Of a stretch of 41,384 bases of DNA, positions 35,923 to 41,384 are shown in pieces. Each line of letters begins with the position of its first letter. The stretch's first letter is position 1. The DNA comes from Desulfobacteraceae bacterium. Its GTDB lineage: Bacteria > Desulfobacterota > DSM-4660 > Desulfatiglandales > Desulfatiglandaceae. Location: NCBI GenBank assembly GCA_030613055.1, contig JAUWMR010000034.1:1-41384 (forward strand), read 5' to 3'. The position numbers and the translations under genes are program-made. The notes beneath the pieces are model-generated. The model saw only the letters and a list, made by a program, of their open reading frames with translations, was not told where the DNA came from and did no database searches.

Positions 35923-36633
35923 ATGAGTCTGGTAACTGCAAAAAATTTGTCCAAGACATATATCACCGGAGAGGTCGGCGTTGAGGCATTGAAGGGCCTT
36001 GATTTTGAGATTGAACCGGCCTCTTTTATATCCTTTGTCGGCCCTTCCGGCAGCGGGAAGACTACACTCCTAAACCTTATAGGCTGCCTGGACAAGGCGA
36101 CTGAAGGAGAACTAATTGTGGCAGGGAAACGTGTGAGTGATCTTGACCGCAGGCAGGGTGCGGATTTCCGGGGTTCGGCCCTGGGGTTTATTTTCCAGTC
36201 ATTCAACCTTCTCCCGGTGCTGACGGCCTATGAGAATGTGGAATATCCATTAGTGATGATCAAAAACGAGTCAAAAGCAACCAGGACGGAAATGGTACTG
36301 AAGGTCCTTGAATCGGTCGGCATGCTCGACCAGAAGGATAAATTTCCTGACCAGCTTTCCGGAGGACAAAAGCAGCGCGTGGCAGTGGCACGGGCCCTGG
36401 TTACCCAACCAAAGCTGGTGTTGGCGGACGAGCCAACGGCCAACCTCGATCATGCGACCGCCAAAAACGTAATTCAACTTATGCGGGCCATGCGAGACGA
36501 ATTCGGAACCACGTTTGTCTTCTCCACTCATGACCCGAGGGTAATGCATGAGGCCGAGGTTATTCACACGCTGGAAGACGGCAGGCTGACACACACGGAA
36601 CAGGGTTCAGACAGGAGGGGAAACCATGATTAA
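35923..36633 (+). CDS. ABC transporter ATP-binding protein, LolD/MacB-like
   Basis: A 236-residue ABC ATPase of the MacB/LolD/FtsE class. Walker A is GPSGSGKTT (40-48), the Q-loop is [21 protein letters not shown], the signature is [15 protein letters not shown] and Walker B is [12 protein letters not shown]. This class powers extrusion or lipoprotein release with a FtsX-fold permease and does not drive transport through the membrane. Start: AAGGAGG lies 7 bases before the ATG. Its stop overlaps the permease start by 8 bases. First gene of a five-gene operon. Confidence 0.93.
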
Positions 36634-37879
36634 TATCTTTAAAATAGCCGCTCGCAACCTTTTGCGTTACAAAAGAAGAACTCTTCTTACTTCACTATTG
36701 ATCACCGTGGGAGTGGTGATGGTTATCCTCTTCTCAGGCCTTTCCGGCTCCTTTAAACAGATGATGATCGGCCTTATCACCGACGCTACGTTGGCCCAGA
36801 TGCAGATTCATAAAAAGGGATATGTCTCTTCCATTGACACCAGTCCCCTCAATCTGAACCTGGGGCCAAAGGCATACGGAAAGGTCAGGGATATGCTTGA
36901 GAAAAATCCGCTGGTGGAATCCTATTCACCGAGGATAAAATTGGGCGCCATGTTGAGCAACTACAAGGAGACCACCAACATCAGGCTTAATGCCATTAAA
37001 CCGGACAGCGAGATAAAGGTCTGCCCTGCCCTTCCTGATCGCATCACGTTCAGAGACAGAGAATCAGGACAGGGTCTTATAAATCCGGGAGAAATCATTA
37101 TCCCTGACAAACTGGCCAAAGGTCTCAAAATAAAACAAGGCGATACAGTGGTCCTTGTGGCCCACAACAAAGAAGGCTCGGTAAACGGCCTTAATTTCAC
37201 GGTAGCCGGTGTCATAGAAAGCGTGGCGGGTCCCCAGGGAAAGGAAGGGTATATACATATCAAGGATGCCCGTGACCTCCTGCGTATAGATAAGCCCGAA
37301 GTCACAGAGGTGGCAATACGCACCCGGGATTTCAATAGGATCGATATGCTTTACGCGGAGATTAACAGTGCCCTTGCTGAATATAAAAATCCCAAGGGAA
37401 ATCCCATGTTCGAGATTCATACATGGGAGGCACTCTCCCCATTCTACAATATCGCCAGAATGATCGACCTGATGGCCATGTCCATGAAAATCATCATGAT
37501 CGCCATTGTCCTTATAAGCATTTTAAATGTTATGATGATGTCTGTCTATGAACGGATCAGGGAGATCGGGACCATCGCGGCAATAGGCACTGCCCCAGGC
37601 AAAATCATGGGCCTGTTTTTGGCAGAAGGATTTTCACTTGGATTAATCAGCACGCTGTTTGCGAACGCCATCGGCGTTGGAGCTATTTATATCCTGAATA
37701 TCCATAAAATAACGTTCTCATTTGGCCGCACGGAGAACCTGTTGCTCTCCCCCTCGGTCAACTTTAACGAACTGATCTGGGTATCGGCCATTGTGCTTTT
37801 AGTTTCCATCTTTGCGACTATTCAGCCAGCGTATAAGGCATCAAAGATGGAGCCGGTTGATGCCTTAAGACATGTATAG
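36626..37879 (+). CDS. FtsX-fold ABC permease, LolC/LolE/MacB-like
   Basis: A 417-residue permease with four transmembrane segments in the MacB/LolCE arrangement: TM1 near residues 18-40, a large periplasmic MacB_PCD-like domain (about 41-285), then TM2-4 (about 290-320, 330-360 and 375-400). It ends YKASKMEPVDALRHV, the A-x-x-x-P-x-x-x-L-R coupling helix of the FtsX fold. It would couple ATP use in the cytoplasm to shape changes in the periplasm. A strong GGAGGGG ribosome site precedes it inside the ATPase gene. The next gene starts 12 bases later. Confidence 0.92.
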   Translation: MINIFKIAARNLLRYKRRTLLTSLLITVGVVMVILFSGLSGSFKQMMIGLITDATLAQMQIHKKGYVSSIDTSPLNLNLGPKAYGKVRDMLEKNPLVESYSPRIKLGAMLSNYKETTNIRLNAIKPDSEIKVCPALPDRITFRDRESGQGLINPGEIIIPDKLAKGLKIKQGDTVVLVAHNKEGSVNGLNFTVAGVIESVAGPQGKEGYIHIKDARDLLRIDKPEVTEVAIRTRDFNRIDMLYAEINSALAEYKNPKGNPMFEIHTWEALSPFYNIARMIDLMAMSMKIIMIAIVLISILNVMMMSVYERIREIGTIAAIGTAPGKIMGLFLAEGFSLGLISTLFANAIGVGAIYILNIHKITFSFGRTENLLLSPSVNFNELIWVSAIVLLVSIFATIQPAYKASKMEPVDALRHV

Positions 37880-37891
37880 GAGGAATTTGAT

Positions 37892-38287
37892 ATGAAAAGA
37901 TTATTTGTTATAAGCCTTGCAATCCTGTTGCTTTGTCCGGTTATGGTCAATGCCGCCGGCTTTGAAAACAGTAAAATTGCGGTCGCGTCCAGCGGTAAAA
38001 CCACGGCAGCGTCTGTAAGCGATCAGGCTGCTAAGTGTCCTTACTATCTTATGTTTGACGGCAAAGGGAACTTGACCGGGATGATTGATAACCCGTACAG
38101 AAATGCAAGTCGCGGCGCAGGGCCTTCGGCGGCAAATTTCCTTGCCCAGAGAGGCGTTACTATGGTAATAGCCGGGAACTTTGGCTCGAAAATGATTAAT
38201 GCCCTGAAAAACAAAGGCATAGCCCATTTGGAATATAAAGGCAACGCGGGTGATGCTGTGAAAAAGGCCTTAGAGAGGAGGCAGTAG
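37892..38287 (+). CDS. Exported NifX/NifB-type (Nitro_FeMo-Co) domain protein
   Basis: A 131-residue protein with a clear signal peptide (MKRLFVISLAILLLCPVMVN, cleavage near residue 21-22). The mature part is the dinitrogenase iron-molybdenum cofactor biosynthesis fold: KIAVASSGKTTAASVSDQAA, KCPYYLMFD (Cys49), NPYRNASRGAGPSAANFLAQ, GVTMVIAGNFGSKMINALKN. Members of this family (NifX, NafY, NifB C-terminus, MTH1175) hold FeS or FeMo cofactor precursors in the cytoplasm; an exported copy with one mature cysteine is unusual. The H-F-G-R seen in many members is replaced by Q-A-A-K. AGGAGG lies upstream of ATG. Its stop is one base from the next ATG. Confidence 0.88.
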   Translation: MKRLFVISLAILLLCPVMVNAAGFENSKIAVASSGKTTAASVSDQAAKCPYYLMFDGKGNLTGMIDNPYRNASRGAGPSAANFLAQRGVTMVIAGNFGSKMINALKNKGIAHLEYKGNAGDAVKKALERRQ

Positions 38288-38288
38288 C

Positions 38289-39017
38289 ATGCAAAAATTC
38301 TTTATCTTTCTTATGGCGATGATGTTTGCATCGCCTGTTTACGCGATAGACGGCAACGAACTTTTAAAAAAGGTTGACCGAAATCTGAATCCCGAGACTT
38401 TTGAAATGTACCGGAAGATTATCAACATAGAACCCGACGGCTCAAAAAAGGAGTTTGTCATGTATTCCGCCAAAAAGGGCAAGGACAAGGTCGTGTCACT
38501 CTTTCTGTCTCCCGCCAGTGAAAAGGGCAGGTCAAGCCTGAGAGTCGGGGAAAATATGTGGCTTTACATCCCGAACGTAGGCAAACCAATCCGAATTACG
38601 AGCCTCCAGTCCGTGACCGGCGGCATATTCAATAACGCGGATATAATGAGAATCGATTACAGTACGGAATACAACTGCGAAAACGTGGAGCGGGCCGAAG
38701 GGAAATACCTGCTTGATCTGAAGGCAAAGACAAAGGCGGTTGCCTACGACAAGGTGAAAATGTGGGTGGACGATAAGGGGCTGCTCCCCATCAAAATAGA
38801 ATGCTTCGCCTCGTCGGGGATGCTGATCAAAACCCTTTATTTCAAGGAGATCAAGGATTTTGGTAACGGCATTGTCCGTCCCGCGGTGACTGAAACGGAC
38901 AGCCCTCTTCACAAGGGCTACAAGTCCATCATGATATTTGCAAAACTGAAAAAAAGGGATCTGGCCGACGAGGTCTTCACCCTGAATTATATGTCAAGGG
39001 TGGGTGACCTCAGATAG
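38289..39017 (+). CDS. LolA-like outer membrane lipoprotein-sorting protein
   Basis: A 242-residue periplasmic carrier with a signal peptide (cleavage after PVYA, about 19). It matches the LolA_like family: MYRKIINIEPDGSKKEFVMY, SLRVGENMWLYIPNVGKPIR, ITSLQSVTGGIFNNADIMRI, YDKVKMWVDDKGLLPIKIE. LolA-type half-barrels bind acyl chains and ferry lipoproteins or lipids from an ABC release complex to the outer membrane. The ribosome site AGGAGG lies in the upstream gene. Its place after a LolCDE-like ATPase/permease suggests it accepts their cargo. Confidence 0.86.
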   Translation: MQKFFIFLMAMMFASPVYAIDGNELLKKVDRNLNPETFEMYRKIINIEPDGSKKEFVMYSAKKGKDKVVSLFLSPASEKGRSSLRVGENMWLYIPNVGKPIRITSLQSVTGGIFNNADIMRIDYSTEYNCENVERAEGKYLLDLKAKTKAVAYDKVKMWVDDKGLLPIKIECFASSGMLIKTLYFKEIKDFGNGIVRPAVTETDSPLHKGYKSIMIFAKLKKRDLADEVFTLNYMSRVGDLR

Positions 39018-39043
39018 GGGACATTTTTCGAAGGTCTCCATAT

Positions 39044-40345
39044 ATGAAAATATTCATCAGATTAACATGGCTCTGTTTAATTTCGGGCATCATCGCGTTT
39101 AACGCGTGGGCCGGCGAGTATGACTTTGATATTCCCGAGATAGAGAAGAAGCCCTACGAGTTCGGCGGCAGCGTCAAAGCGGGATACATACTTTCCTGGT
39201 TGGACAGGGACTCGGCCCAGTATCATCAGAAGTTCTATAATCGTGATGAGGGCTCCACTGTTGACACATACGGGCTTACCCTTCAATTAGAGGGAAGCTA
39301 CACAAAGGGCATTGCAAAGCTTTACGCAAAAGGTAACACAGATATTACCCACGATTACCTCGGTTGGGAGGAAGACACAAGACTGTACGAAGGCTTTATC
39401 TCTATAAAGCCGTCACCTGCCTTTACTATCGAAGCCGGCAAGAAGGTTATGAAATGGGGAAAGGGCTATGCCTGGAATCCTGTGGCCTTCACCAGCAGGC
39501 CAAAAGATCCGGATGACCCGGAACAATCCCTTGAAGGCTATACATTAGCCTCTGTCGATCTGATAAAGAGTATGTCAGGTCCCATCAAGACCATTGCCCT
39601 TACGCCGGTTGTCTTTCCCGTTTATGAAGAAATCAACAACACGTACGGGGAAACCGGCCATGTGAATTACGCCGGTAAGCTTTACCTCCTGATATTTGAT
39701 ACGGATATAGACCTCATGTTTTTTCTCGGAGACAGCAGGGAAGACACCTACGGCCTGGACTTTTCAAAGAACATTTTGGTCAACCTTGAGGTTCACGGTG
39801 AGGTGTCATACACAAATGACTTTGAGAATGGATATATAGACAGAAACGGCATCGCCTATAGCAGGCGATCCAGCGCCGTAAGTTTCCTTTTAGGGACACG
39901 TTATCTGAATAAGTATGATACTACTTTTATAGTGGAGTATTACAGAAACGGGAAAGGGTTCAGCAAGGCGGAAATAACTGATTACTTCATGTTTACCGAA
40001 GACGGATACAACATTTATCAGGCAACCGGCAATGAGAAAAAGCTAAAAAAGGGCATCAGTCTTTCAAAAAATTATTTTAGCGAAAAAAACTATATGAAGG
40101 ACTATATTTATCTTAAGGTAACCCAAAAAGAACCTTTTAATATCCTTTATTTCAACCCCTCTCTCGCGGTCATTTTCAATGTGGCGGACCAGAGTTATTC
40201 CATTACGCCGGAGTTGCTGTATACGCCCGTATCAAACCTTGAACTGAGGCTCAAGTCTACCTTTTTTCAGGGAAGCAGGTACTCTGAATTCGGAGAAAAG
40301 CCCTTTGATTGCAAAGTTGACTTCTCGGTAAAATACTACTTTTAA
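39044..40345 (+). CDS. Outer-membrane beta-barrel protein of the envelope operon
   Basis: A 433-residue protein with a signal peptide (cleavage after NAWA, about 23). Alternating amphipathic strands fill the mature part, and the C-terminus ends FSVKYYF with a terminal Phe, as in barrels inserted by BAM. The segment MKWGKGYAWNPVAFTSRPKD (about residues 141-160) is shared by DUF1302-like outer-membrane proteins. No TonB box or plug domain is seen, so it is probably not a TonB receptor. It closes the operon, 26 bases after the LolA-like gene. It could be a porin, an acceptor for the carrier or an extrusion channel. Confidence 0.8.
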   Translation: MKIFIRLTWLCLISGIIAFNAWAGEYDFDIPEIEKKPYEFGGSVKAGYILSWLDRDSAQYHQKFYNRDEGSTVDTYGLTLQLEGSYTKGIAKLYAKGNTDITHDYLGWEEDTRLYEGFISIKPSPAFTIEAGKKVMKWGKGYAWNPVAFTSRPKDPDDPEQSLEGYTLASVDLIKSMSGPIKTIALTPVVFPVYEEINNTYGETGHVNYAGKLYLLIFDTDIDLMFFLGDSREDTYGLDFSKNILVNLEVHGEVSYTNDFENGYIDRNGIAYSRRSSAVSFLLGTRYLNKYDTTFIVEYYRNGKGFSKAEITDYFMFTEDGYNIYQATGNEKKLKKGISLSKNYFSEKNYMKDYIYLKVTQKEPFNILYFNPSLAVIFNVADQSYSITPELLYTPVSNLELRLKSTFFQGSRYSEFGEKPFDCKVDFSVKYYF

Positions 40346-40403: not shown

Positions 40404-40492
40404 GCACATATTTTTGCGCATTTTATAGCCTTCGCTTTTTTTGCACAGTTTTCTGTGCATTTTCTTGCCTTTATGCACAGATTTTTGTGCAT
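40404..40492. repeat. Series of TGCACA...TGTGCA hairpins
   Basis: Two clear palindromes, TGCACAGTTTTCTGTGCA (40442-40459) and ATGCACAGATTTTTGTGCAT (40473-40492), plus a looser GCACATATTTTTGCGCA at 40404-40420. The first is followed by TTTTCTT, so it could stop transcription of the barrel gene; the spacing of about 32-39 bases also fits a binding-site array. Confidence 0.6.
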
Positions 40493-41108
40493 TAAATCAA
40501 AATTCACCTATATTTTTCCTAAAAAAGGCTTATTTGCTTGACATTTCCAACCTTTGGCCTATTCTAACCTTCATATCATTACCTGAATCCTGCATAAACA
40601 ATCTTGAACGTTTCTATAAAAAGGCGCACCATGATACCTCACCTCAAATTGTGCCTAACACTCTCCTGACAGAAGAAATCTTTTCTGTTGGGAGTTCCCG
40701 CAGGGAACTAAATTATATTCCCGAATGTCAAAAGATTCAATGAACTCAGAAATCGAGCGGGCTTTTGGCCTCTTTAATCGTAACCTTTTTAATTTATAGG
40801 CGTTAAACAGAAACTATATAATCACTTTTCTGTATATCACTCTTAAGTGTGGAGATATGCAGAACTATAGAATAACTTGTTCGGCGGCGACGGAAACGAA
40901 AAGATCGCTAGGCGTAATCATCACTTAAGGGTCAACATAATGACCCCTGGCATGGCAATGAAATGGTCGATCAGTTCAAGGGATTGATTGATCAGGAGAT
41001 CAGTTGGAAATCGGAAGGAGAGGTAACTTAAATGGCTAATTATAAAAATGGGGTCAAATCTCCTATTAGCTCTTGTTATTTCAAAACAAATATTGTATAA
41101 CTCTGCCT
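40493..41108. other. Gene-free stretch before the transposase
   Basis: About 600 bases with no gene I can support. A palindrome GGGTCA-ACATAA-TGACCC lies at 40929-40946 and GGGGTCAAATCT at about 41053, as often seen near REP-associated transposases. A short open tail ending EISWKSEGEVT (stop near 41032) could be a gene relic; its family is not recognised. Confidence 0.4.
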
Positions 41109-41384
41109 ATGTCACGTCCATTAAGAATAGAATATCCAGATGCCTGGTATCATATAATGAACAGGGGTGGGCGTTATGAGGCTATTTTTGAAGATAAGAA
41201 TGATTATTCTATATTTCTGGATTTATTGCAGGAGACAATCGATATTTTTCATGTAAAGGTTTCTGCTTTTTGTCTAATGCAAAACCATTATCACCTTTTG
41301 ATTCAGACTCCTGAAGCAAACATCTCAAGAAGTATGAGACATATAAATGGTGTTTATACTCAAAGATTTAATAAGATACATGGA
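41109..41384 (+). CDS. REP-associated tyrosine (Y1) transposase, 5' part
   Basis: The first 92 codons of a transposase; the rest lies past the right edge. MSRPLRIEYPDAWYHIMNRG and FCLMQNHYHLLIQTP carry the Y1 HUH motif (His-x-His), here NHYHLL where NHxHLL is typical. RAYT enzymes nick at hairpin ends and move palindromic units. The catalytic Tyr would lie beyond the visible part. The start follows AACTCTGCCT without a good ribosome site. Confidence 0.88.
   Translation, partial: MSRPLRIEYPDAWYHIMNRGGRYEAIFEDKNDYSIFLDLLQETIDIFHVKVSAFCLMQNHYHLLIQTPEANISRSMRHINGVYTQRFNKIHG

Follow-up and report, generated by a model that had tools for sequence, protein, structure and literature searches.

What does a Lol-like transport operon carry across the cell envelope when it also encodes an apparently exported protein of the NifX fold? 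The question is raised by five open reading frames (ORFs) in a 41,384-nucleotide stretch of DNA, hereafter the window (contig JAUWMR010000034.1 of Desulfobacteraceae bacterium, GCA_030613055.1; coordinates without a locus number are positions in it). At 35923-40345 on the plus strand, spaced by -8, 12, 1 and 26 bases, lie genes for a LolD/MacB-type ATP-binding cassette (ABC) ATPase (236 amino acids [aa], 35923..36633), an FtsX/LolC-E-like permease (417 aa, 36626..37879, overlapping the ATPase gene by 8 bases), a Nitro_FeMo-Co protein of the NifX fold (131 aa, 37892..38287), a LolA-like carrier (242 aa, 38289..39017) and an outer-membrane barrel (433 aa, 39044..40345). Cassettes with LolA-like proteins of family PF17131, to which this carrier belongs, are common, and their cargo is mostly not known. 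A sequence-only reading of the window had proposed a trans-envelope pathway in which a cluster-binding fold might load or deliver a metal cofactor or a lipid-linked cargo, an interpretation that our analysis partly supports. Our best explanation, to which we give a probability of roughly 0.4, is that the operon encodes a dedicated second Lol-like trans-envelope pathway that many hosts use under metal or metalloid stress, with the NifX-type protein as a periplasmic binder.

A conserved four-gene core and an accessory NifX gene

An alignment of the LolA-like protein was scanned against 84,980 species genomes and the best 80 loci were kept (some are doubly numbered: L039/L082, L062/L096, L063/L146 and L064/L139). 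They came from Desulfobacterota, Nitrospirota, Beta- and Gammaproteobacteria and one Omnitrophota bin. Around the LolA-like gene, and in order, the permease was found at 76 of the 80 loci and the barrel likewise at 76; loci missing either gene mostly end at a contig edge, and L106 and L078 may be true exceptions. Because gene order is conserved far beyond chance in these related loci, the five-gene arrangement is a real operon and not a chance juxtaposition, and four of its genes (ATPase, permease, PF17131 carrier and barrel) form a core that is kept together across phyla. The sequence-only reading was thus right about the genes, their spacings and domains, and about a set that stays together in other genomes, but not in counting the NifX gene as part of that set. 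Exported NifX was present at 18 of 59 resolvable loci, the other 41 being complete enough for it to be called missing (the remaining loci could not be judged), and its presence or position changed at least 14 times on a tree of the permease and LolA-like protein. Since many complete loci lack the gene, which has been repeatedly gained or lost, exported NifX is an accessory, found in about a third of cases.

The accessory is nevertheless a faithful one. It occupies either of two positions, 5' of the ATPase gene or between the permease and LolA-like genes, keeps company with the cassette despite this change of position and is rarely found apart from the core. Pairwise identities of NifX and LolA-like proteins correlate (Mantel r 0.62; 0 of 2000 permutations). 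The NifX proteins nearest to that of the window, at L104 and L109 (72% identity), are encoded beside LolA-like proteins that are not the nearest to the window's, so NifX genes may have been exchanged between cassettes. When the class (85 genomes) and the phylum (395) were searched, close exported orthologues appeared in few genomes. Outside the order, all 10 further Desulfobacterota genomes with an exported NifX at E <1e-18 had it in the same five-gene set, one contig (L065) ending inside the LolA-like gene so that the barrel is not seen. Within the class sample, L039 has the complete set with NifX first, and L040, L041 and L044 are fragmented or cut by contig ends; at L041 an unrelated gene follows NifX, and this may be a separate case. 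One cassette (L067:7225-8136) has two tandem exported NifX genes, of which one carries about 30 inserted residues.

Several candidates were set aside. Two genes near tripartite ATP-independent periplasmic (TRAP) transporter genes (L042:275-823 and L043:7219-7806) have an extra N-terminal region and other neighbours; their NifX domain is about 45% identical to the exported one, and a response regulator also adjoins. Among 299 Pseudomonadota genomes, only L163 matched the exported-NifX alignment strongly, and it encodes a cytosolic NifX with MinD-type ATPases as neighbours rather than the cassette; weaker matches (L072, L073 and L164) are cytosolic proteins of ORP-type loci. A resistance-plasmid context was likewise discarded: on plasmids the LolA-like matches were distant, at no more than about 30% identity, and the barrel had no match. 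Genes for DUF134 and DUF5320, the usual company of cytosolic NifX/ORP loci, were also observed near cassettes L107, L144, L119, L110 and L077, some of which lack exported NifX.

The core proteins resemble the Lol machinery without falling within it. The ATPase (Pfam ABC_tran, 3.4e-32) has LolD (TIGR02211) as its best NCBIfam match, at 220 bits and under the 307.75 cut-off. The permease matches Pfam FtsX (1e-14) and MacB_PCD (1.7e-13), scores 120.9 bits against LolCE (cut-off 362.45) versus 31.8 bits against MacB, and has LolF, LolC and LolE as its best solved relatives; by these comparisons it is closer to LolC/E and LolF than to MacB, yet far below the equivalog cut-offs. Nor does the operon qualify as MacAB-TolC: ATPase and permease are separate genes, and neither an adaptor nor TolC was found in the operon. 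The carrier matched PF17131 and no other family (147.4 bits against a cut-off of 30; E 4.7e-43), lies near the solved NE2245 protein (3buu, E 1e-29) and shows 65% mean column identity in an alignment of 11 cassettes. For the barrel, no Pfam family was matched and a PDB sequence search gave nothing useful; its AlphaFold2 (AF2) model (pLDDT 90.6, pTM 0.83) has 18 strands and a helical insert at residues 308-344, with fold matches of the Occ/OprD/AlgE type (Z about 21-23 at 8-12% identity). Among the structural matches listed, the best were of Occ/AlgE type and none was Omp85, although that list alone does not rule out an Omp85 type.

The host has its own Lol genes, with LolCE over the cut-off on contig C35 and a canonical LolA of family PF03548 on contig C47. 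Because these are separate, we read the window operon as an additional, second Lol-like pathway beside the housekeeping one. Three further PF17131 genes occur in the host. Two of them adjoin resistance-nodulation-division (RND) pumps, a DUF1302 barrel being present in one case, and the third belongs to a divergent set of ABC unit, LolA-like protein and barrel. Contig C4 carries the genome's second ATPase-permease-LolA-like-barrel set, a divergent one without NifX (L154:6595-11500), in which the ATPase, permease and LolA-like proteins are 28-49% identical to those of the window and the barrel 21%.

Purine-rich sequences resembling ribosome binding sites precede the starts, for example AAGGAGGG before 35923 and AGGAGG before 37892, and signal peptides are clear by eye on genes 3 to 5, as the sequence-only reading had noted: MKRLFVISLAILLLCPVMVNA on the NifX-type protein (about 21 residues ending in VNA, 37892..37954), MQKFFIFLMAMMFASPVYA on the LolA-like protein (38289..38345) and MKIFIRLTWLCLISGIIAFNAWA on the barrel (39044..39112). 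Scans of the window for promoters and terminators gave counts not above those in shuffled sequence, a limit that applies to a weak terminator-like hairpin 3' of the operon (40442..40459, plus strand). Just beyond, at 41073-41384, is the start of an ORF resembling a REP-associated/IS200-type transposase, cut by the contig end.

The exported NifX-type protein and its metal context

Assignment of gene 3 to the Nitro_FeMo-Co family is secure by score (PF02579, 47.6 bits against a cut-off of 26.3), and its AF2 model (pLDDT 89.4) was matched by Foldseek to TM1290, ORP (2wfb), TM1816, NifX (9ian) and NafY (1p90). Export appears to hold throughout the family: the other full-length exported orthologues keep a hydrophobic N-terminus, their best 12-residue stretch having a mean hydropathy of 2.6-3.3, compared with 1.1 for a cytosolic NifX from the same scan. 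With NifX, ORP and MrpORP the protein shares fold and family; it differs in being exported, in lacking conserved Cys and His and in being encoded among envelope transport genes. In Desulfovibrio, domains of the ORP and MrpORP types hold metal-sulfide clusters, and the motifs CXHFGHCE and CDH mark the Fe-S-binding Di-Nase domain of MrpORP type (PMC6345978). Neither motif was found in the exported NifX family, and 26 aligned orthologues had no conserved Cys or His column, so nothing points to a ligated Fe-S cluster; the protein may instead hold a non-covalently bound complex, by analogy with ORP.

A connection to metals is suggested by the genes around the cassettes. Recurrent neighbours are ArsR-type regulators, ArsP_1 permeases, ACR3-like transporters, Spy-type Metal_resist proteins, arsenite methyltransferases, thioredoxins and universal stress proteins. 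ArsP_1 (PF03773) is a metal and metalloid efflux family whose members include ArsP, the Cu/Zn protein SO_0444 and SaoE. Across 50 cassette-bearing whole genomes, with about 88 ArsP_1 matches over the cut-off in 177.3 Mb, such a gene lay within 7 kb of the cassette at 5 of 50 loci against 0.22 expected in 452 kb of flank, a 20-fold excess (Poisson P 4e-6, uncorrected for the choice of this family after the flanks had been seen). Four of these five stood beside NifX-bearing cassettes (Fisher P 0.03). Metal_resist genes also occurred at 5 of 50 loci, where about 0.14 would be expected by a hand calculation from about 56 matches over the cut-off. Among 127 flank proteins of NifX-bearing loci, ArsP_1 was one of the commonest families, its six members drawing level with histidine kinase domains. 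An order of ArsR, permease, (thioredoxin) and cassette recurs at L076, L109 and L119, and ArsM at L064 and L145.

NifX domains were also found joined to permeases directly. The five-gene set of L069 is immediately preceded by two half-size permeases that are weakly ArsP_1-like. Half-permeases of this kind (query from L165), which we call ArsP_1-like because both halves appear to align to PF03773, were found in 12 of 247 genomes of the phylum. In 7 of the 12 a NifX domain is fused to the half-permease N-terminus, once in the window's own genome (contig C32, L158:6115-6882) and otherwise at L169:1102-1917, L170:1483-2328, L171:1015-1872, L173:1117-1920, L174:1480-2268 and L176:1087-1878; the fusion genes usually adjoin a second half-permease gene. 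Two further genomes, and L165 itself, have a separate NifX gene 3' of the half-permease pair, L069 is the tenth case, and L172 and L178 had no NifX in the stretch examined around the half-permeases. We found no description of such a fusion in the literature searched. Together, the fusions and the ArsP neighbours suggest that NifX binds what ArsP-type permeases move. The metal link proposed by the sequence-only reading thus survives in part, supported by gene context (ArsP_1, ArsR-type and Metal_resist genes and the NifX-permease fusions) but not in the form of a ligated Fe-S cluster.

Explanations for the cargo

The architecture fits a trans-envelope pathway, and homology suggests its steps. 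An ABC unit that probably contains a permease homodimer would extrude an amphipathic cargo from the inner membrane's outer leaflet. The LolA-like protein would then shield this cargo on its way across the periplasm, and the barrel would accept it, either to insert it into the outer membrane or to release it through that membrane. This scheme of ATP-driven extraction, shielded transfer and outer-membrane delivery is suggested because the parts are homologous to Lol, and it matches the model of Borrelia BBJ23-29 (PMC13078400). From gene context, we suggest that many hosts use the route under metal or metalloid stress and that the NifX-type protein binds, in the periplasm, whatever a partner ArsP_1-type permease transports, most likely a thiol- or sulfide-bound metal or metalloid; it would capture this substrate after efflux and then present it to, or protect, the Lol-like path. 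A fuller version, in which an ArsP-type permease, a soluble complex on exported NifX and export of that complex or a lipophilic adduct by the ABC-LolA-barrel route form one metal or metalloid disposal line, we regard as rather unlikely.

Several points weigh against a role in metal stress. No metal gene adjoins the operon within the window, and ArsP_1 permeases, recurrent neighbours of NifX-bearing cassettes, are absent from the window operon itself. The half-permeases match PF03773 at or under its cut-off, the exported NifX family lacks conserved Cys and His, and the enrichment tests were made after the flanks had been inspected. Most cassettes have neither NifX nor an ArsP neighbour, so the cargo of the core may be unrelated to metals. 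No cargo, metal or cluster was observed.

One alternative is a specialised lipoprotein or lipid sorting route, in which one particular lipoprotein or membrane lipid reaches the barrel by way of the ABC unit and the LolA-like protein, and NifX acts as a regulator or ligand sensor without a metal role. The permease and ATPase most resemble LolC/E and LolD, PF17131 belongs to the LolA superfamily, and Borrelia BBJ23-29, a predicted-only export system of ABC unit, LolA-like protein and outer-membrane barrel described in 2026, has been read in this way (PMC13078400). BBJ23-29 shares with the window a cluster of ABC ATPase, single LolE/MacB-like permease, LolA-like carrier and barrel, beside a separate LolA, but has an Omp85-type barrel in place of the 18-stranded Occ/AlgE-like fold, and two tetratricopeptide repeat (TPR) proteins where the window operon has a NifX-type protein and no TPR proteins. 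Likewise, LolCDE-LolA-LolB has the same ATPase type, permease type and carrier fold, whereas the window operon has one permease gene, a PF17131 rather than PF03548 carrier and a barrel instead of LolB, and falls well short of the LolD and LolCE cut-offs. The operon contains neither LolB nor a lipoprotein gene, canonical LolA and LolCE are encoded elsewhere in the genome, and sorting leaves the link between NifX and ArsP-type permeases unexplained; we consider it possible but doubtful.

Efflux of hydrophobic organics such as solvents, terpenes or aromatic metabolites, with NifX as a stress accessory, is unlikely, though it has a parallel. In AmeABCD of Castellaniella defragrans an inner-membrane pump, a LolA-superfamily periplasmic protein needed for growth on monoterpenes and an outer-membrane protein fill the same three roles (PMC6394551). 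The host of the window carries RND-PF17131 cassettes, of which one includes a DUF1302 barrel. A single gene run (L039:4950-13244, on the contig of L082) has both cassette types, comprising a Spy-type Metal_resist gene, the cassette, an MMPL/RND pump and another LolA-like gene; such a pump and second carrier would suit a greasy cargo and count against a role in metal stress. However, AmeABCD has an RND pump with DUF1329 and DUF1302 proteins and serves monoterpenes, whereas the pump of the window is an ABC unit, and the neighbours of the cassettes indicate metals and metalloids, not hydrocarbon catabolism. The idea that exported NifX supplies enzymes of the periplasm or outer membrane with an Fe-S or Mo-type cofactor, whether by loading or by delivery, as the NifX/ORP fold and the cluster-binding Desulfovibrio domains might suggest (PMC6345978), is most improbable of all, given that the MrpORP motifs and conserved Cys and His are absent, that no metalloenzyme gene was found recurring at high frequency beside NifX-bearing cassettes and that the cassette can do without NifX.

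Novelty and significance

Sets of ABC unit, LolA-like protein and barrel have already been proposed in Borrelia, and an RND version has been studied in AmeABCD. The sequence-only reading knew of no system with this combination. In the part of the literature searched, we too found no description of an exported NifX joined to a Lol-like cassette, LolA, ABC or ArsP, nor of the cross-phylum core or the tie to ArsP-type permeases; the claim gives way for the set without NifX, which has its predicted-only counterpart in Borrelia (PMC13078400).

If the predicted export is right, the operon places a NifX-fold protein in the periplasm, where, to our knowledge, no characterised member of the fold is known to work. 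Were the disposal line true, it would couple a cluster-binding fold, put to use in the periplasm, to a Lol-like transporter. A cross-phylum cassette that pairs an exported protein of metal-cofactor type with metal-efflux neighbours makes the question of what PF17131 proteins carry a testable one.

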